Virus record (IMG/VR): IMGVR_UViG_3300002933_000016
Location: 1-51,594 of that record
DNA: 51,594 nucleotides
Reading direction: 5' to 3' (one strand)
Source: a virus
Of this stretch, positions 11,246 to 51,131 are shown piece by piece. Position 1 is the first letter of the stretch. Each line of letters begins with the position of its first letter. The notes under the pieces are model-generated. The model made no database searches, was not told the origin of the DNA, and worked only from the letters and a program-made list of their open reading frames with translations. A program made the translations under genes and the position numbers.

Positions 11246-12898
11246 CTACTTTTTCTTAGCTGCTTTTTTTACTGCCGGTTTCTTTGCTTTTGGTTCTGCC
11301 TTTACTTTCTTTTGTGCCTGCAGCGCTGCTATTCTTTGTTTGGCACGTTCCTCACGTTTATCGCGTTTCTCTTTCTGCTCAGCTTCAAAAGTTTCAATTG
11401 GAATATCACCATAACTTTCAGCCATCATCCGCATGAACACTGCAGCAACCTGAGTAGGATAATTACCAGAATGCTTTGCCCAGAATGCTTTGCGGATTAA
11501 ATAAGTAATTTGTCGATGATTAAGTTTCAGTAAAGCCTCAGCAAAATCTTTTCTTTTATCTGTAGCATCAGAGGGAAGTCCCAATGCTTTTCTAACAGGA
11601 TCATTATTCCATCCTAAATGTTCAAATATCAGATAAAGCATTGCTCCCCATTCTGCTTTTGGAATAACAGTACCAACACCACTTTCTACAGGTAATATTT
11701 TATTTTGTGTAGGATGTTCACTTACTGCCTGAAGGATCCGGGCATATACTTTTTCTTCATCCAATTCAGCAGCTCTTTTGGTGCGTTGTTTAATGCCTTC
11801 AATTTCTTCATCTATAGCTGCATTAGAATTATTGCCGGCAGCTGATAAATTTGATTTAATAGATGCAGTTTTGCTTTCAACATATACAATATCTTTTTTA
11901 CCCGCATCACTTCCATTCACCCAAATGCAATTTGTTTTAACAGCATTTCCATACTTACTTTTATTGATAGGCTCATTCATATAACTATGAATTTTTACAC
12001 CATGTTCTTTTGCCAAATCAATAATAAATTTTGGAACAGTACCACCGGATGCCAAAAGCATTGTATTTGGTTCTTCTACGATAACTCTACTTATTTCGGT
12101 CAATAAGTAAGCATTCATTTTTATAGTAAAACAGGCAGGATCAAAACATCTGTCATCCTGTTTAATATCATCGAATAATAATTTGTTGCTTCCGGAACGT
12201 TTTAAACAGGTAACACATGATCCTGCTTTTGGATTAAGCGTTAGATCATCCTTTTTAAATGGAACAGATGATAATTCACGAAGAATGCTGTTATTGATAT
12301 AACCTCTGATTGCATTAATGCTTTTATAATCTTTACTCTGCCATTCCTTACATTGTTTTGCAGCTTCTTTTTGATCTGCCGGAGATAATCTGGAAAACAA
12401 AACTGCAACTCCGATCAGGAATTTACCGGACCAAAAATCTTTCTGTAATTCCGGGATCAGATTATTAAGTGATAATCGGTGTGCAACAAAGGTTTCGGGT
12501 TTATTTATTTTGGCAGCAATATCAGCAATGGAATATGGTTTAACTTTATTTTCCATCATTGATTTAAAGGTTACAGCCTCATCCATTGGATGCACATCCG
12601 TACGTTGTAGGTTTTCTGTAAATTGTAATTCAATTACTTCTTCATCAGTCAATACTCTTACAATTACAGCTACAGTTGTCATCTTTGCAATTACTGATGC
12701 TCGTAATCTTCGTTCTCCGCAAACACATTCATATTTCCCTGTTCTGTCTGGTTGTTCACGAACCGTAATTGGCTGAATCAATCCATGCTTTTTGATGCTT
12801 TCAGAAAGTTCTTTTAATTCTTTCTCATCAAAATGTTTTCTGGGATTAGTTGGACTTGGATAAATATCCGCCAACTTAATTTGTACAATGTTGTTCAT
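11246..12898 (-). CDS. ParB/Spo0J-family protein
   Basis: A 550-residue protein. Residues 1-100 form a ParB N-terminal domain (LADIYPSPTNPRKHFDEKEL, ESIKKHGLIQPITVRE, CGERRLRA, TENLQRTDVHPMDEA). An HTH region follows (SIADIAAKINKPETFVAHRL). The middle has a cysteine cluster (CVTCLKRSG...CFDPACF) that may bind zinc, and the end is Lys/Ala-rich (KAEPKAKKPAVKKAAKKK). In phages such proteins can aid plasmid-like partition, act as CTP-dependent clamps or regulate transcription. No ParA partner is present here, which argues against classical partition. Confidence 0.85.
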   Translation of the reverse strand: MNNIVQIKLADIYPSPTNPRKHFDEKELKELSESIKKHGLIQPITVREQPDRTGKYECVCGERRLRASVIAKMTTVAVIVRVLTDEEVIELQFTENLQRTDVHPMDEAVTFKSMMENKVKPYSIADIAAKINKPETFVAHRLSLNNLIPELQKDFWSGKFLIGVAVLFSRLSPADQKEAAKQCKEWQSKDYKSINAIRGYINNSILRELSSVPFKKDDLTLNPKAGSCVTCLKRSGSNKLLFDDIKQDDRCFDPACFTIKMNAYLLTEISRVIVEEPNTMLLASGGTVPKFIIDLAKEHGVKIHSYMNEPINKSKYGNAVKTNCIWVNGSDAGKKDIVYVESKTASIKSNLSAAGNNSNAAIDEEIEGIKQRTKRAAELDEEKVYARILQAVSEHPTQNKILPVESGVGTVIPKAEWGAMLYLIFEHLGWNNDPVRKALGLPSDATDKRKDFAEALLKLNHRQITYLIRKAFWAKHSGNYPTQVAAVFMRMMAESYGDIPIETFEAEQKEKRDKREERAKQRIAALQAQKKVKAEPKAKKPAVKKAAKKK

Positions 12899-16953: not shown

Positions 16954-17898
16954 TTAGAAATCATCATCATTAAACACCTTTCCGTTAGTGGCTGCAGGTG
17001 TTTCCTTTTGCATAAATTCTTCATCATCTACAGGAGGACTTACAACCATAGCAGGTTTAAATTTTGCATCTGCTGCAGGTGTTGGTAATGATTGTTCTTC
17101 CAAACCATAAATGTCCTGTTCAACAACATCGGCATCTTCATCAACTGTATCAGAAGCCAATGCAGTGAATTTTGATTTTTCGAGTATGCGGAGTTTTGGA
17201 TAACTCTTAAAGGCGTGCTTAATTGTTTTCGCCTGAACCATTCCGGGAAGACCATCAGTCCAAGCTTTAGAATTCGGGTCTTTGGAAAACTTACGAAGCT
17301 TTTCAATTTCCGGCATTGTCAATACCTTATAATCAACTGAATCATCGTTTCGAGTGATACGGAGATAACAAGCAATGATCACTTCACTCTTTCTTGGAAT
17401 GGTAGCTTCATGATCAACAAAAACATTTCCGCCACGTGTTCCAATTTTGAAAAGATCACCTTCATAAACTAATACCGGATTATCAGCATATTTGATTTGG
17501 CCTTGTTTCATGCGAAGAAGTAATTCGCCCTGGCCACTGATTTGTAATTGTGCTCTGCTCTCCCATTTAGGAGAATCTTTTGTTCCTGCATTTACATTAT
17601 AAGGAACCATGTACATGTGCTTCATGGTAGGATCAAAACTTAATCCGTTTACAGCTCCATCGAGAAAACAACCATAAAGACTAAGCTTGCTACATAAAGA
17701 AAGCTTTTGATTTTCCTGCAGCATTTTTGCGAAGTGAAATTTTTCAGCTTCGTAATATCGTTCTCCGGATTTACCGTTGAAAGTCACATACAGACTTTTG
17801 AATCTGACAGCGACTTCAGGAACATTTACAATTTGAGTTGGTGCTGCAGCTTCCAACTTTTGAATAATTGTAACTTTTTGACTTACATTTGTGTTCAT
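16954..17898 (-). CDS. recT: RecT-family ssDNA annealing protein
   Basis: A 314-residue protein with RecT features: FHFAKMLQENQKL at the start of the fold, YGCFLDGAVNGLSFDP, and MYMVPYNVNAG. Later come RAQLQISGQGELLLRMKQG, GLPGMVQAKTIKHAFKSYP and an acidic, probably disordered C-terminus ending NDDDF. RecT anneals complementary ssDNA with the partner exonuclease (here 14935-15612). It is the first large gene of the recombination operon, and a GC-rich hairpin lies 31 bases upstream of its start. Confidence 0.9.
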   Translation of the reverse strand: MNTNVSQKVTIIQKLEAAAPTQIVNVPEVAVRFKSLYVTFNGKSGERYYEAEKFHFAKMLQENQKLSLCSKLSLYGCFLDGAVNGLSFDPTMKHMYMVPYNVNAGTKDSPKWESRAQLQISGQGELLLRMKQGQIKYADNPVLVYEGDLFKIGTRGGNVFVDHEATIPRKSEVIIACYLRITRNDDSVDYKVLTMPEIEKLRKFSKDPNSKAWTDGLPGMVQAKTIKHAFKSYPKLRILEKSKFTALASDTVDEDADVVEQDIYGLEEQSLPTPAADAKFKPAMVVSPPVDDEEFMQKETPAATNGKVFNDDDF

Positions 17899-21053: not shown

Positions 21054-21253
21054 CTCAAACAAAAACTCAAACAAACAGCTTGAAAAAGCGATAAAATACA
21101 ACGTCGACAGTTTTATAAAATGCTGGTAATCAATTTCAATTTATAAGGAGATAAAGGTCTTGCTAAATCCCTCTCTCTCCGCTTTTTTTTGAAATCCTTT
21201 ACTGGCGTGCATTTGCGGAGCGTCGACGTTGAAACTCAAACAAAAACTCAAAC
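21054..21253. promoter_or_regulatory. Candidate attP with core and arm repeats
   Basis: The core candidate AAATCCCTCTCTCTCCGC (21165-21182), followed by a T-run, looks like the T-arm/acceptor 3' end and terminator of a tRNA-Ser gene. It is flanked by two exact copies of a 19-mer, CTCAAACAAAAACTCAAAC, at 21054-21072 and 21235-21253. It is also flanked by an inverted pair, CAACGTCGAC at 21099-21108 and GTCGACGTTG at 21222-21231. Core plus arm sites directly in front of an integrase is the expected attP plan. Confidence 0.75.
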
Positions 21254-21263
21254 GTCACGTTGT

Positions 21264-22481
21264 ATGTCACAAAGGATTATTTACACCTCGCCTGCTATAT
21301 GCAGCTACGACCAATCTATTGAAAAGAATTGGTTTGTTTACTTCGATATCACAGATCCGGAAACAGATGTCACCATCCGAAAGCAATTTCGCGGAGGCAT
21401 TAACTATTACAAAACCGTGAAGGATCGCTCATTCGCTGCAGAGCAGCTCCGTCGGCATTGGGAAGAAAAATTAAAGAATGGCTGGTCTCCTTTTGTACTT
21501 TCCATCAATACATTGAATAAGATGCGATTCAATGAAGCAATTGATTTCGCACTCAGTAAATGTCAGTTAGCTAAAAAAACAAAAGCTGGTTATTCCGGGA
21601 CTGCAGAATTTTTTAAAGCAGCTGCAAAAAAATCAAATCTCGATAATGCATTGATGATCGGAATAAAACGGCAGCACATTAAATTATTGTTGGACCAGAT
21701 CAAAGCTGAACGCTCCTGGTCAAATCATGCCTATAATAAAAATCTTGGTTACTTCGCAGGGATCCTTTCTCGGTTAGTTGATTTTGAAATCATCGAACAT
21801 AATCCTGCACATAATATTAAATTTCTTCCTGTTACAGAAACAAACAAATATGAAGCTTATACTGAAGATGAAAAGATAAGAATTAGAGAAAAGTTATTGG
21901 CTATTCTTCCATCTTTTTTTACTTATCTCATGGTAATTTATCACACCGGCATCAGGCCAAAAGAAGCACTTGCATTGAAAATTCGGGATATAAATTTTGA
22001 AAGGCGACTCATTCTGATCAAGCCGGATCTGGAAGAAGAAAACAGTAAAACAAAAACTATCCGGATGGTCCCTATTAATGAATATTTAGCAGCATTGATC
22101 CTGCAGCATGTATCAGGATATCAGGAAAAGGAAATGTTTGTTTTTGGAAGTCCTTTTGATTCTGGCAAGGGAAACAGAGGATCAGAAATAGGACACAACG
22201 GATCTACCCGGACTGATTATTTTAAACCATCATTCACTCATTTAAAAAGAGATACTGCAACCAAGCTTTGGAAAAAGATTGTGATCGATGGAATGAAAAT
22301 TAATAAGTACATGTATGCAATGAAACACACCGGAGCTGATGATAAAATTCTTGCCGGTATCAGCTTGGATGCATTGCGTCATATGTATGGCCATACCAGT
22401 AAATTAATGACGGAAAAATATGCAAGAAAAGTGAAAGATGTTTATCGAGAACAAATTGTTGTGAACTCTCCAGACTTTTAA
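21264..22481 (+). CDS. int: Tyrosine recombinase (integrase)
   Basis: Read from ATG at 21264 this is 405 residues. An upstream TTG at 21189 would extend the frame into the attP repeats and is less likely. A core-binding domain precedes the catalytic domain. Visible catalytic parts are HTGIRPKEAL (Arg), then YAMKHTGADD in the HxLR position with Lys in place of Arg, and MYGHTSKLMTEKYAR with the His and the Tyr nucleophile. The KHT variant occurs in Bacteroidetes integrases. It would insert the phage at a tRNA-Ser gene using the adjacent attP. Confidence 0.9.
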   Translation: MSQRIIYTSPAICSYDQSIEKNWFVYFDITDPETDVTIRKQFRGGINYYKTVKDRSFAAEQLRRHWEEKLKNGWSPFVLSINTLNKMRFNEAIDFALSKCQLAKKTKAGYSGTAEFFKAAAKKSNLDNALMIGIKRQHIKLLLDQIKAERSWSNHAYNKNLGYFAGILSRLVDFEIIEHNPAHNIKFLPVTETNKYEAYTEDEKIRIREKLLAILPSFFTYLMVIYHTGIRPKEALALKIRDINFERRLILIKPDLEEENSKTKTIRMVPINEYLAALILQHVSGYQEKEMFVFGSPFDSGKGNRGSEIGHNGSTRTDYFKPSFTHLKRDTATKLWKKIVIDGMKINKYMYAMKHTGADDKILAGISLDALRHMYGHTSKLMTEKYARKVKDVYREQIVVNSPDF

Positions 22482-37999: not shown

Positions 38000-38260
38000 T
38001 TAATCTTCTTTTTGAAATGGTGCATGCCATAGTTTTAAAACCTCTCGAAGCATGATCACATTATCCATATAATCACTAATTGTCAATTCATCAACTTCGT
38101 TCTTGCTATAACCCAAAAAAGCCCGGAACATGGTTTTTTGATATAAAACCGGGTCCCGGGCAATTAATTTATCCTTAGCCTTATCCGGCTGATCATTTAT
38201 TTCATTTAAGTCTTCTTCAATTGAGAAAAAAAGGGGGCGATTTTCTCGCCAAAGAACCAT
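38000..38260 (-). CDS. Tail assembly chaperone, frameshift part (gpT-like)
   Basis: An 86-residue frame in the -1 phase relative to the preceding gene, overlapping it by 55 bases. The sequence (SIEEDLNEINDQPDKAKDKL, then RAFLGYSKNEVDELTISDYM) fits the second part of a gpG/gpGT chaperone. Its own ATG at 38260 could be used, but the usual product is a fusion made by frameshifting. The tape measure gene follows 3 bases later. Confidence 0.72.
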   Translation of the reverse strand: MVLWRENRPLFFSIEEDLNEINDQPDKAKDKLIARDPVLYQKTMFRAFLGYSKNEVDELTISDYMDNVIMLREVLKLWHAPFQKED

Positions 38261-38610
38261 GTGCCGAAATTTAGCACCGCGATATTGTCATTTAAAAACT
38301 CTGCTTTGTCCTGTTCAGTAAAATCCTTTGCATCAACTTGTAACAATGTTTCTATTGCTGCATCAGTTAAATCGGCCAGTCCATCAGTATCTAAATTTAT
38401 TTTTCCTTCCTTCACATCGATGCCGCCAGTTTCAATAACAGATAATATTTTAAATGTCAATTTTCTTTGGTTCCTTTCCGTTCTGCTCAATTCATGGAAT
38501 ACTGCAGTTTTGGTTATCTCTTCTTCTTTCCATTCAACAGTATTACCATCTGCACCTGCAGTTGCTACTTTAGAAATAAAAGTCAGGTCTTTTTTAAAAA
38601 CTTGTATCAT
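38206..38610 (-). CDS. Tail assembly chaperone (gpG-like)
   Basis: Read from ATG at 38610, which overlaps the tube stop as TAATG, this is 134 residues; the frame opens 8 codons earlier. It has a beta-rich first half (EEEITKTAVFHELSRTERNQ) and a helical second half (LADLTDAAIETLLQVDAKDF). In the overlap with the next frame the messenger holds a C5-T7 run read GCC CCC TTT TTT TCT, a plausible place for -1 slippage. The chaperones coat the tape measure during tail assembly. Confidence 0.78.
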   Translation of the reverse strand: MIQVFKKDLTFISKVATAGADGNTVEWKEEEITKTAVFHELSRTERNQRKLTFKILSVIETGGIDVKEGKINLDTDGLADLTDAAIETLLQVDAKDFTEQDKAEFLNDNIAVLNFGTWFFGEKIAPFFSQLKKT

Positions 38611-39026
38611 TAAATAACATTTGTTGCAGTCCAATCAATATTCACCAGGGTTTCTTTATCCTTTGCCTTAACACTTACTTTTGATGTGTTCAAACACATG
38701 TTCAGATAAGTATAAGAAGGACCACCAACTAATGAAGTGATCGATAAGATCGCGTTAGGAATTTGTGTTGCTGATTTCAAACCTGCTTCACTTAAAATGC
38801 TGTCCATTTCACCATTCTGTAATGAGAAAGCACCGGCAAATTTGTAAGCGTTTTGTTTATTGCCTACTGCATATTGTTCACCAACAGCATAGATTAGTTC
38901 ATTTTCAACACTATCATCCCAACCAATGGTATTTACAGTGCCAAGCATATAAACACCGACACCGGGAATATTTAAAGCAACCTTGTATTCGGCTGCAGTG
39001 ATGATTAATAAATTTTTATTAGGCAT
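38610..39026 (-). CDS. Tail tube protein
   Basis: A 138-residue protein directly after the sheath. It has the small beta-barrel pattern of tube proteins: AAEYKVALNIPGVGVYMLGT, GWDDSVENELIYAVGEQYAV, and NAYKFAGAFSLQNGEMDSIL. Position between sheath and tail chaperones is diagnostic. Confidence 0.82.
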   Translation of the reverse strand: MPNKNLLIITAAEYKVALNIPGVGVYMLGTVNTIGWDDSVENELIYAVGEQYAVGNKQNAYKFAGAFSLQNGEMDSILSEAGLKSATQIPNAILSITSLVGGPSYTYLNMCLNTSKVSVKAKDKETLVNIDWTATNVI

Positions 39027-45859: not shown

Positions 45860-47095
45860 CTAACTAATTACTCCTTTGCGATATTTATTTGCGGCTTTCT
45901 TACTAATGGCGAACGCATCAACAATAACTCCATCCTGCGTTTGTACGATGTAACAAGTCTTTCCAAATTTAATATAATTTCTCAAAACTACTTTTTGATT
46001 TTCTGCATCCTTCCAGCTCATCCAGATCTCGTCAGGACGTTGAACAGTTTTAGGAATATTTTCAAAGCCTCTGCTATGCTTTTGCACCTCATGAAGTGAG
46101 TTGGCCGTAAATCGAATATTCGTTAAAGTTTGTTTGTTCTGGAAAATAACATCACCTGATTTATTGGTTTCATATTTCTCTTTCCATTCATTCACTGTCT
46201 CAATAAAATAATGCAAACCGGTTGCCGCTTTTATGATCGCTCCAAGGCCTGTTAAGGATTCATCGCTTTCGATATCACCTTCATCAAATAATTCTGCATT
46301 TGCTTTATTCGCATTTCCCAACACTTCAAAATAACTATGCTTATCATTCGGGAACATTCCTTGCTCTGCAGGATTATAACGGAACTGTTCATCAACATGT
46401 TCATCGAGCAATTGTTTTGCTTCTGAATTCGTGTTTACTTTTCTATTGGCGAGTTCATCATCATCGAGTTCATCACCGCTGCATCTGCAGTTCCAATCAT
46501 CCGGAGGAAAGCATGCATCACCTGCAGGATCTCCTATTTTAAAAATCTGTCCTTCCAATTCTACATGCTCTTCACGTTCACGATCATCCATCACACCTTT
46601 ATAAATCCAATATGGATAAAGATCAGAATCTTCCATCATACTTCTGAATCGTTCACCTTGCACGCTGGATCGTACACAGATATCTCTTTCAACTCTTAAC
46701 CAGGTTTCCTGAAAAATATCAGTTACTTCTTTTGCTTCTTTATTAAACTTCGAAGGTGATTTTATTTTTTTATCTTCATCATATACCAATGATTGAAGTG
46801 TCTTGGCTTCTGCAGCTGACTTTGCCGCACTGAATTGAAACACGTTTAAAATATAGCGCTCAAAAATAGATGTGTCCCGGAAAGCTTCGAATGAAGTTTT
46901 GATTTTTGTATTGTCAACAATATCCTTGAAGAAATATTTATTATATTGTTTATAAACGGGTGTGAAGATTACTTTTCCTTTTGGATTTTGATAGATGTAT
47001 TTTCTTTCATCTTCGGACAGATCATCCTCGATCAGTTTTTTCTTTTTGGTTTTCTTTTCACCTTTCAGAAAGGCATATTCTCTACCGATTAGAAT
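45860..47095 (-). CDS. Mu F-like minor head protein with PBECR-like nuclease end; no normal start
   Basis: The frame is open from 47143 down to 45860 but holds no ATG, GTG or TTG before a GTG at 46843, which lies inside the fold. I place the start at the first codon after a ten-A run (ATT at 47095); a -1 frameshift from the portal would enter here. The MuF core is present (DDREREEHVELEGQIFKIGD; CFPPDDWNCRC at about residues 195-205). The last 100 residues (FTANSLHEVQKHSRGFENIP; RPDEIWMSWKD; FGKTCYIVQTQDGVIVDAFA) resemble a PBECR-type barnase/EndoU/RelE-like nuclease. It probably enters the cell with the DNA. Confidence 0.75.
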   Translation of the reverse strand: MLIGREYAFLKGEKKTKKKKLIEDDLSEDERKYIYQNPKGKVIFTPVYKQYNKYFFKDIVDNTKIKTSFEAFRDTSIFERYILNVFQFSAAKSAAEAKTLQSLVYDEDKKIKSPSKFNKEAKEVTDIFQETWLRVERDICVRSSVQGERFRSMMEDSDLYPYWIYKGVMDDREREEHVELEGQIFKIGDPAGDACFPPDDWNCRCSGDELDDDELANRKVNTNSEAKQLLDEHVDEQFRYNPAEQGMFPNDKHSYFEVLGNANKANAELFDEGDIESDESLTGLGAIIKAATGLHYFIETVNEWKEKYETNKSGDVIFQNKQTLTNIRFTANSLHEVQKHSRGFENIPKTVQRPDEIWMSWKDAENQKVVLRNYIKFGKTCYIVQTQDGVIVDAFAISKKAANKYRKGVIS

Positions 47096-48558
47096 TTTTT
47101 TTTTGAACCGAATAAAGATCTTTCCGGCAATACTGCAGCGAAATCACCGTCATCGATTGGTTTACCTGCAGCTGGTGTTGGAGCATCTTCGAAAAATTCT
47201 TTTACTAATCCATTTGCTTCAAAGAATTCATCAGTCAATCGTTTACCATTGGCAGTAAGAACATCAGAGAGTTGTTTGATATCTTCCATGCTCATTTGCT
47301 TTGCCTTATTAGCAACAAACTTTCCGCCTTCAGGAAGATTTTTATAAAACTTCTTTATCTTTTTGAGATACTCGTCATTCAAATAATTTTCTACGAACTC
47401 CGCAATATCTTCAATGATGGTTTCAAGCTTATCGGCATGCACATCGCCAAGCGCTCTGCTTCCTGATTTTGCTGTGGAGCTTGTAAGTGTTCCGCCCAGG
47501 ATCATTTCCCGGATCTCATTCTTTTTATCTTCATTGAAATCAAGATAAATGGAATGTGCTTTTGCTGCAGTGCCGGTCTTTTCAAATTCAATCTCTAAAG
47601 ACTTCTGAATATTTCCCTGAGGATCCAATGTATAAGGATAAACCAATCCTTTTGTCGGATCAGCTGTGGCCACTACATTTTCTGCCTGAATTTTGAAAGG
47701 ATTATAATCATTCCCTGCAGCATCTTTTTCATTGCTGTTTTGAGGATATCCAACAGTCATTAATGGAAACGCTAATCTTCTACCTGCAGCGATCCAGCTA
47801 TTATCATTCAGATTCATTTGGATGAACATTCTTGATATCGGTTGCATCCATCCGAGGAATGCTTCATATGCTGTTGATGGCTGAACAAACAATAAATTAT
47901 CATGCTCACTGAAATTCACACCATCATAAAATGAATAAGTGTTTTGTTTCAACAAACGATTGATAGGATCAATGTCCTGCATCGGATATTTATAAACCTT
48001 GCCATTAATCGGATCAAAGTTCAATCCCAAAAATCCCCAGAAATGAGCAAGTGCAATTTGTTTTCTTAAATCTTTGTGCCAGCTTTTATTACATAATTCT
48101 TCGGTCCAATCCATTAACTCATTTCCTTTTTCATCAACAAACAAATATGGTATTTTTCCGATCGGAGATTCTATTGCCCGGAATAAAGATTGTATAAACG
48201 GTGAAGATTCAAACACCCATGAAACGAGTGTTGCATAAGACATTGTATATCCCTGTTTGATAGCCTGATCACAAGCATATCGCCAGGTGCTTAAATTCCA
48301 TTCAACAAAATAATTAGAAGGAAATGTTTGAGAGATAACATTCAAGCCTGCACCTTTTGGAATCATGAAAGGATTCACTGCTGGTTGGGTACCGGTTGCA
48401 GGTTTTGATTTTTTATTACCATTGCCCCATCCGCCGCCATTACCTTTTCCATTATTTCCTATTCCCGGGATTGACAAAGGACCACCACCGGCAAGTTGGT
48501 GCTGTTCTCTTTTTGCTTGTATTGCAGGATCATTTAATCTGCGTTCTCTTCTGCTCAT
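47089..48558 (-). CDS. Portal protein, DUF935-like
   Basis: A 489-residue protein. The N-terminal 60 residues are Gly/Asn/Lys-rich and probably disordered. The body matches the Mu-type DUF935 portal: SYATLVSWVFESSPFIQSLF, HFWGFLGLNFDPINGKVYKY, ILGGTLTSSTAKSGSRALGD. The end is DFAAVLPERSLFGSKKKF. The portal forms the DNA channel and packaging vertex. The KKK codons lie in a run of ten A, one codon before TTC TAA. A -1 slip here would extend the product into the minor head protein. Confidence 0.88.
   Translation of the reverse strand: MSRRERRLNDPAIQAKREQHQLAGGGPLSIPGIGNNGKGNGGGWGNGNKKSKPATGTQPAVNPFMIPKGAGLNVISQTFPSNYFVEWNLSTWRYACDQAIKQGYTMSYATLVSWVFESSPFIQSLFRAIESPIGKIPYLFVDEKGNELMDWTEELCNKSWHKDLRKQIALAHFWGFLGLNFDPINGKVYKYPMQDIDPINRLLKQNTYSFYDGVNFSEHDNLLFVQPSTAYEAFLGWMQPISRMFIQMNLNDNSWIAAGRRLAFPLMTVGYPQNSNEKDAAGNDYNPFKIQAENVVATADPTKGLVYPYTLDPQGNIQKSLEIEFEKTGTAAKAHSIYLDFNEDKKNEIREMILGGTLTSSTAKSGSRALGDVHADKLETIIEDIAEFVENYLNDEYLKKIKKFYKNLPEGGKFVANKAKQMSMEDIKQLSDVLTANGKRLTDEFFEANGLVKEFFEDAPTPAAGKPIDDGDFAAVLPERSLFGSKKKF
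47092..47106 (-). other. Probable -1 slippage site joining portal and minor head frames
   Basis: On the minus strand the messenger reads TCA AAA AAA AAA TTC TAA in the portal frame; ten A stand in a row. In the -1 frame it reads AAA AAA AAA ATT CTA ATC GGT and continues 412 codons to the end of the minor head gene. A7 or longer runs support both ribosomal and polymerase slippage. A homopolymer read error that splits a true fusion gene would give the same picture. Confidence 0.65.
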
Positions 48559-49682: not shown

Positions 49683-51131
49683 TTATAGGGTAATGTTCCC
49701 GGTGCGACTAATTTGTGATATCCCTCCCGGAATAAGTTTTTTGTGACGATTGACGTACATCTGATATTCCTGATAGAATGCCTGCACCATGAAATCTTTT
49801 AAAGTATCTGTTAAGTGGCCATTCTTTTCCATTGTGATTCCTTCAATGGTTGGATGTGGAACACGAATTTTTAAAATGGTACCGTCTTTGTCTGTTTTGG
49901 TTTCAATATAATCGTTGATTGATTTTTTACAGGTTTCACCGATCACAATATCTATTCCCTTCACTTCTCCGGCAAATATTGCATTTACAAAATCTCCAAT
50001 CGATGAAACAGATGGAGCATAAGACAGGATCTTGTCTACTGTTTTAAATCCTGCATTCAGAATCGTTTCATTCACGATTTGAAAAAAGCTTCGTTTATTA
50101 TCATCGATATTATTCCTGTTTTTTGTGGACCGGTCACCATACAGAAATACCTTTTCATTATAGCCGATATCATTCAACCATTTCACAATTGATTTCCCTG
50201 CCCATGATGCAGTGTTGTAAGGATCTTCACAAGGGATTTCATGAACCTGTTTTACTTTCCAACCGGTATCGGTCCTGAATAACTGCCAGCAAGTAACTGC
50301 GATGTAAGGATAAACGTTGCTATCTAATGAAATATGAACTGTTGTTGATTCATCATAGGTAACAGCTTTTACATGCTGATCCAGTTCAAAGTTTCGTAAG
50401 AACTCTCCGCCGGTCTTTAACTGCACATCCCAATTGCCTTCAACGAAAACTTCATATTCATAATGATTCAGATTTTCTTTTAGCTGTGGAAGATAATCTG
50501 GCTGTTCTGCCAATAATGGAACGTTGTCATAGATCCTTGATTGTATATAATGCCAGGAAGGTTTTAATGTTTTGTTTTTCCATGGTGTATAAACCAAATC
50601 CTTGAACCATCCGAATGTCGGGTTACAGGTTGCAACGATCAATGGCTTTGGCTGTATTTTTAATCCTTTGATGATATAAGATCCGGCACGTTCAAAAGCT
50701 TTGAATAGTGTGGCCTGCTGACATTCGTTTATTTCTTCAAATCCAAAACCGTTCACTTCAAAACCTTTCCATCGGTCCAAGTCTTTATCTGTGTCATAGC
50801 TCTCCGGGAAGAAAATTATCTGTGAACCATTTTTAAAAGTGCAGATATGTTGGTCCATCGGATGCGACTTGATGAAGTTTGTCGGCTTTATTTTATTCCA
50901 TGATGGATAAAGATTCTTTTTGATCGTAGGAAGGTTTTTTCTCACTATCGCCCAGCGGGATCCGGGAAACACTTTGCAGAGTAAAATGAAAAGAGCAAGC
51001 AAAGCATATGTCTTGCCTCCTCTGATCGCTCCGCCAAATGTGATAAATGTATAATCTCCGGATAAGGCAGCATCTAAGAATTCCTGCTGCTTTTGAAATG
51101 GTTGGAATAATATTTCTTTTGCTTCTGCCAC
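49683..51131 (-). CDS. terL: Terminase large subunit
   Basis: A 482-residue packaging motor. Walker A is GAIRGGKT at residues 34-41. The hydrophobic strand with catalytic Glu is VNGFGFEEINE, and the coupling motif is IVATCNPTFGW. The nuclease domain shows VHISLDSNVYPY and KVFLYGDRSTKNRNNIDD with metal-binding Asp residues. All expected motifs are present and length is normal. The small subunit gene lies 2 bases upstream. Confidence 0.95.
   Translation of the reverse strand: MAEAKEILFQPFQKQQEFLDAALSGDYTFITFGGAIRGGKTYALLALFILLCKVFPGSRWAIVRKNLPTIKKNLYPSWNKIKPTNFIKSHPMDQHICTFKNGSQIIFFPESYDTDKDLDRWKGFEVNGFGFEEINECQQATLFKAFERAGSYIIKGLKIQPKPLIVATCNPTFGWFKDLVYTPWKNKTLKPSWHYIQSRIYDNVPLLAEQPDYLPQLKENLNHYEYEVFVEGNWDVQLKTGGEFLRNFELDQHVKAVTYDESTTVHISLDSNVYPYIAVTCWQLFRTDTGWKVKQVHEIPCEDPYNTASWAGKSIVKWLNDIGYNEKVFLYGDRSTKNRNNIDDNKRSFFQIVNETILNAGFKTVDKILSYAPSVSSIGDFVNAIFAGEVKGIDIVIGETCKKSINDYIETKTDKDGTILKIRVPHPTIEGITMEKNGHLTDTLKDFMVQAFYQEYQMYVNRHKKLIPGGISQISRTGNITL

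Follow-up and report, generated by a model that had tools for sequence, protein, structure and literature searches.

A run of ten A (A10) at the 3' end of a phage portal gene leads into a MuF frame that has no start codon of its own, and the two would together form one recoded gene. A programmed portal–MuF fusion is strongly supported, and the whole explanation, in which RNA polymerase slips on the run, is likely, with no RNA or protein data as yet. The run, its phase and the stops behind it are conserved among relatives, a start codon is missing, the MuF frame is under purifying selection, and in a sister clade the signal is replaced by a ribosomal one. The fusion protein itself, the ratio of free to fused portal, and the control of nuclease copies are inferred and remain unproven.

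Gene layout of the window

The window is the whole of an IMG/VR virus record (IMGVR_UViG_3300002933_000016; 51,594 bases). On its minus strand, a terminase gene (49683-51131) is followed by two small genes, the portal gene, and the frame of a MuF–PBECR2 protein (Table 1). All three profile matches at the locus exceed their Pfam cut-offs: Portal_Mu with 75.4 bits (curated cut-off 23.9), Phage_Mu_F with 49.7 bits (curated cut-off 29.6), and PBECR2 with 41.5 bits (cut-off 27.1). The locus has the layout of MuF polymorphic toxins, namely a MuF domain beside the portal with a toxin-type domain C-terminal to it; toxic activity and delivery with the DNA are predictions only. An AlphaFold model of MuF was set aside (mean pLDDT 48.5).

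Table 1. Features of the portal–MuF locus in the window.
Feature	Position	Strand	Details
Portal gene	47089..48558	-	489 aa; Portal_Mu (PF06074), Pfam 6.6e-21; default product of locus
Slip site, A10 in sense strand (T10 on +)	47095..47104	-	portal frame TC[A AAA AAA AAA] TTC
Portal stop TAA	47089..47091	-	one codon past A10
MuF frame 3' of slip	45860..47095	-	411 aa plus stop; first residues ILIGREY
Phage_Mu_F domain (PF04233)	46478..46750	-	residues 116-206 of MuF part; Pfam 7.3e-13
PBECR2 predicted nuclease domain (PF18810)	45866..46180	-	residues 306-410 of MuF part; Pfam 1.8e-10

Genes for a tyrosine integrase (21189-22481, plus strand), RecT (16954-17898, minus strand), and a ParB-like protein (11246-12898, minus strand) suggest that the phage is temperate and that its replication is not Mu-like, despite the Mu-type head genes. 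Scans of genome contigs for relatives of the window found none, so the host phylum is an inference from relatives only. At 38000-38634 on the minus strand, two overlapping frames lie between a sheath-like gene and the tape measure, with a -1 shift at C5T7 (GCC CCC TTT TTT TCT); this may be a recoded tail chaperone pair, which it resembles.

The junction and its conservation

The portal frame crosses the junction as GGT TCA AAA AAA AAA TTC TAA and the MuF frame as TTC AAA AAA AAA ATT CTA ATC GGT AGA GAA TAT, which is -1 to the portal. The MuF frame is open upstream as far as 47143, and its first ATG, GTG or TTG is a GTG at 46843, 84 codons past A10 and within the conserved protein; the third frame stops 3.3 codons past A10. 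With one added A, the junction reads S-K-K-K-I-L-I-G-R-E-Y and the fusion would have about 899 aa. A10 is the sole homopolymer of 10 in the window. Three claims of an earlier note, made from the sequence alone, thus held: MuF has no ATG, GTG or TTG upstream of its conserved part, it is exactly in the -1 phase to the portal, and the ten-A run lies one codon ahead of the portal stop.

In homologues at about 47-63% portal identity, the portal ends in a run of 9 to 11 A directly before its stop, and MuF is in -1 except in L012 and L013, where it is in +1. The conserved first MuF residues of these homologues (e.g., ILIGREY, LIGTEY, ILVGKEY) begin at the run. An HMM-based survey identified 25 IMG/VR lineages with 9-12 A, 24 of them in -1; those survey members that lack a run (L070, L075, L079) carry an ATG in the MuF frame, and FPSV-S1 likewise has no slip signal and its own start. 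More distant alignments added 160 loci, which with the earlier loci gave 139 junction clusters (only run-bearing lineages of the first survey enter this tally): 75 with an A run, 56 with U UUU UUC, three with A AAA AAG, and five without a signal. L169, tallied as A8, was assigned to the U UUU UUC class, and L094, L133, L144, and L180, whose portal frame or match stops early, were left uninterpreted.

Within the A-run class, MuF is in -1 in 57 clusters (p 5e-14 vs an expectation of one third), in frame in 16, and in +1 in two. The runs comprise 9-12 A, none shorter and mostly exactly 10, and A10 dominates in all three phases. The 575,317 bp of A-run loci contain nine other sense runs of at least nine A and no other of at least ten; given a run at the junction in 75 clusters and such rarity elsewhere, chance is excluded. 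Elsewhere in the first-survey portal genes, 63% of Lys codons are AAA, and none of the four KKK found elsewhere in first-survey portal or in MuF is AAA AAA AAA. Two criteria for a transcriptional slippage gene are satisfied at the locus: its frame transition falls on an A/T run at least nine long (A10 in the window), and the same ORF layout recurs in at least two non-identical related sequences (57 clusters in -1).

Cultured phages share the layout. At the portal end, the run is A10 in Winogradskyella phage Peternella_1 and A9 in Flavobacterium phage fF4, and both have MuF in -1. We came across no virion proteomics in the text of the Peternella paper (PMC8776804).

One rival explanation is a homopolymer read or assembly error in a truly continuous fusion gene. 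Homopolymers are error-prone, and in-frame portal–MuF fusions are known in Porphyromonas phages and Microbacterium phages (PMC7302621). Yet the identical A10 junction occurs in IMG/VR contigs from three other metagenomes (L002, L003, L004), hence in four assemblies with the window, and both the preponderance of -1 clusters and the cultured genomes speak against error. This explanation is all but excluded.

Some relatives differ in other ways. In the distant relative L047 (3683-3740), MuF is in -1 with no ATG, GTG or TTG and no recognised slip site, and its expression is unexplained. Just past the conserved NCxC region, an in-frame intein breaks the MuF frame of L009 (2736-4655) and L031 (3772-5664) (Pfam Intein_splicing 4.8e-06, below cut-off, and 6.7e-10, respectively), and L065 carries a similar insertion. 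In five loci (L025, L026, L067, L072, L074), a separate frame or ORF behind MuF encodes the C-terminal nuclease part, and a second MuF-profile match falls in another frame; the nuclease or toxin part may have been uncoupled or swapped there.

Coding in the MuF frame starts at the run

Nine pairs of related loci, not all of them independent, gave a pN/pS of 0.18 for the MuF frame over the first 35 codons past the run, and values of 1.09 and 1.78 for the remaining frames. The MuF frame is thus under purifying selection and coding straight from the run onward. For 46 of the 57 -1 lineages, the stretch reaching from 30 codons before the run to 20 codons past it holds no ATG, GTG or TTG. The codon on which the run ends varies (AAG, AGC, ATT, AGT, ATC, and others), so no start is conserved. 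The annotated MuF starts of Peternella_1 and fF4 both fall downstream of the run. Stops follow the run closely in the other frames, at a median of 3.0 codons for the portal and 2.7 codons for the third frame, compared with a median of 8 codons for off-frame stops in the control region.

These data bear on a rival in which MuF is a separate protein whose translation begins at the run, on ATT or some other codon, or re-initiates past the portal stop, with the A-rich leader drawing ribosomes. In its favour, Shine-Dalgarno pairing is rare in Bacteroidia ribosomes (PMC6847099, PMC9976891), 11 of the 57 -1 lineages have an ATG, GTG or TTG within 20 codons past the run, and run-less relatives possess their own start. 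Against it stand the 46 lineages without a start and the unconserved run-end codon, the in-frame fusions that retain the run though they need no start (below), and a sister clade that relies on a frameshift signal. We regard this rival as very unlikely.

In-frame fusions retain the run

All 16 in-frame portal–MuF clusters of the A-run class keep the run, which is A10 in 15 and A11 in one. One added A leads to a stop after 4-15 codons and one lost A to a stop after 5-12 codons, so slippage in these clusters would yield free portal. The gut contig L088 and the distant fusion L042 behave in the same way, with longer tails in some cases. Run length is equal for both default products, free portal and fusion, which suggests selection for a slip site rather than for one frame. 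In-frame fusions without such a run also exist (Porphyromonas phages, L043, L046).

This independence of run length from phase argues against read errors and also against phase variation, in which reversible changes in the DNA length of the run would toggle genomes between free portal and fusion. Ten-A runs do mutate easily, and one close pair differs (L219 with A10 in frame, L220 with A9 in -1), which may be a real change or a read error. Yet A10 dominates the -1, in-frame, and +1 classes alike, and the four assemblies of the window lineage agree; there is very little to recommend phase variation.

A sister clade carries a ribosomal signal

The sister clade, 56 clusters, carries U UUU UUC at the portal end, followed nearly always by an Asp codon and a stop, and in nearly all of these clusters an 8-bp hairpin starts five bases past the heptamer. 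In an alignment of 54 hairpin sequences (53 distinct; L099 and L249, which lack the hairpin sequence at that place, were excluded), 98.6% of cells are paired, and 46 cells are changed on both sides, against a mean of 14.9 after shuffling. Covariation scores 0.290, compared with 0.078 for shuffled alignments and at most 0.034 for slid versions. The mean structure z-score is -3.24 past U UUU UUC and -0.34 past the A run. In the cultured Elizabethkingia phage TCUEAP3, U UUU UUC lies close to the end of the portal, MuF is open in -1 from the heptamer although its annotated start is at 2657, and the hairpin scores z -4.1. With a heptamer and a conserved, covarying stem-loop, the sister clade meets the criterion for programmed -1 frameshifting and probably makes the same portal–MuF fusion through a canonical ribosomal signal, for which there are no protein data. 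With an A run in one clade and U UUU UUC in its sister, the same fusion would be reached through two different signals at the same place.

Three further clusters (L200, L222, L237) have A AAA AAG without a long run, L237 with an ATG near the portal stop. In L200 (4741-4748) and L222 (4654-4661), the portal ends with A AAA AAG TAA, MuF is in -1, and there is no nearby start and no clear hairpin; A AAA AAG is possibly a third slip signal there.

Proposed mechanism

We propose that A10 read normally gives free portal of 489 aa. RNA polymerase slipping on A10 would add one A (or drop two), giving an mRNA that runs in frame into MuF and encodes the portal–MuF–PBECR2 fusion. Third-frame transcripts would stop within a few codons and give a portal of near-normal length. 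The portal ring is inferred to consist mostly of free portal with some fused subunits, which would keep MuF and its nuclease tethered within the head, at the vertex of DNA entry; delivery of the nuclease is likewise inferred. In phage SPP1, one to two copies of gp7 are complexed with the portal (PMC5576092).

That polymerase rather than ribosome slips at the window A10 is a likely inference, made without RNA data. We favour polymerase because the class always has at least nine A, mostly ten whatever the phase, includes two +1 members, and lacks a stimulatory structure. In many bacteria, A/T runs in genes are selected against from length nine, bacterial polymerase slips on nine A, and slippage on A9 in Thermus dnaX affects half of the product (PMC1088944). 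Single-nucleotide insertions are the main outcome in A/T runs, and they increase exponentially as the run lengthens (PMC5574713); one inserted A is just what the -1 target needs.

In the closest rival, the same fusion arises when ribosomes slip by -1 on the A AAA AAA inside the run. The window does meet the heptamer criterion X XXY YYZ, with A AAA AAA in the zero frame, sister phages have a ribosomal signal at the same place, and L200 and L222 carry A AAA AAG and then a stop. However, seven A would be enough for a ribosome, yet runs are of 9-12 A and mostly exactly 10; the A-run class shows no consistent downstream stimulatory structure (z -0.34, same as control, p 0.30), and the window locus does not meet that criterion (z -0.58 and -1.59 downstream of the run); and two lineages require +1, which -1 slippage cannot supply. 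We consider the rival unlikely as the sole cause, though a ribosomal contribution at the in-frame heptamer remains possible. The A AAA AAG members without a long run, and L070, L075, L079, and FPSV-S1 without a slip signal, also count against the proposed explanation as a whole.

Of the three options in the earlier note, a programmed portal–MuF fusion is supported by the conserved run, phase and stop, by purifying selection, and by the sister-clade signal; its slippage claim is refined, as an extra A added to the mRNA by RNA polymerase is more probable than ribosomal slippage. An ATT start failed, since the codon is not conserved across relatives, and a homopolymer read error is excluded in practice. 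The homologue alignment it had suggested shows run and phase conserved, and its proposal that slippage controls the number of injected nuclease copies is still an inference.

Significance and comparison with known systems

On balance, if by a narrow margin, we favour a bolder reading: that portal rings across a large phage group with Mu-type heads, probably infecting Bacteroidota, are built from two products of one recoded gene, free portal and portal–MuF, and that polymerase slippage on A10 and ribosomal -1 slippage are exchangeable in evolution as means of setting the ratio. If so, polymerase slippage sets the make-up of a dsDNA phage virion, which would explain a small, controlled number of MuF or nuclease copies at the DNA exit vertex, an open question for MuF toxins, and would be a viral counterpart of dnaX, with polymerase and ribosome slippage replacing each other. 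On this reading, the muf genes of such phages, including cultured ones, have misannotated starts or have been missed; Peternella_1, fF4, and TCUEAP3 are cultured test systems on hand.

In-frame portal–MuF fusions (PMC7302621), ribosomally recoded phage structural genes (PMC5009743), and MuF toxins (PMC5576092) are already known. In the open-licence literature searched, supplements excluded, we found no report of a recoded portal–MuF or of polymerase slippage in phage virion genes.

The closest parallel is dnaX, in which, as in the window, a long A run gives two products (polymerase slippage on A9 in Thermus thermophilus, ribosomal -1 on A AAA AAG in Escherichia coli) and, as in the phage clades, a ribosomal signal substitutes for the A run in relatives. 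It differs in that slippage shortens a polymerase subunit, whereas in the window it would join two virion genes. Polymerase slippage in Shigella mxiE and spa13 likewise joins two frames into a longer product (PMC5009743, PMC1088944), but in type III secretion genes rather than a phage head. Recoding sets the ratio of short to extended protein in lambda G/G-T, T7 and T3 10A/10B, and the A2 and PSA capsid genes (PMC5009743); these cases are all ribosomal, and none concerns portal and MuF. In SPP1 gp6/gp7 and the MuF polymorphic toxins, MuF adjoins the portal and there is a C-terminal nuclease domain (PMC5576092), but the genes are separate. The in-frame fusions of Microbacterium phage clusters EA and EB (PMC7302621), Porphyromonas phages, and PHROG 220 and 35074 have the same domains in the same order, yet they would place MuF on every portal unless processed, whereas the window is expected to make both forms.
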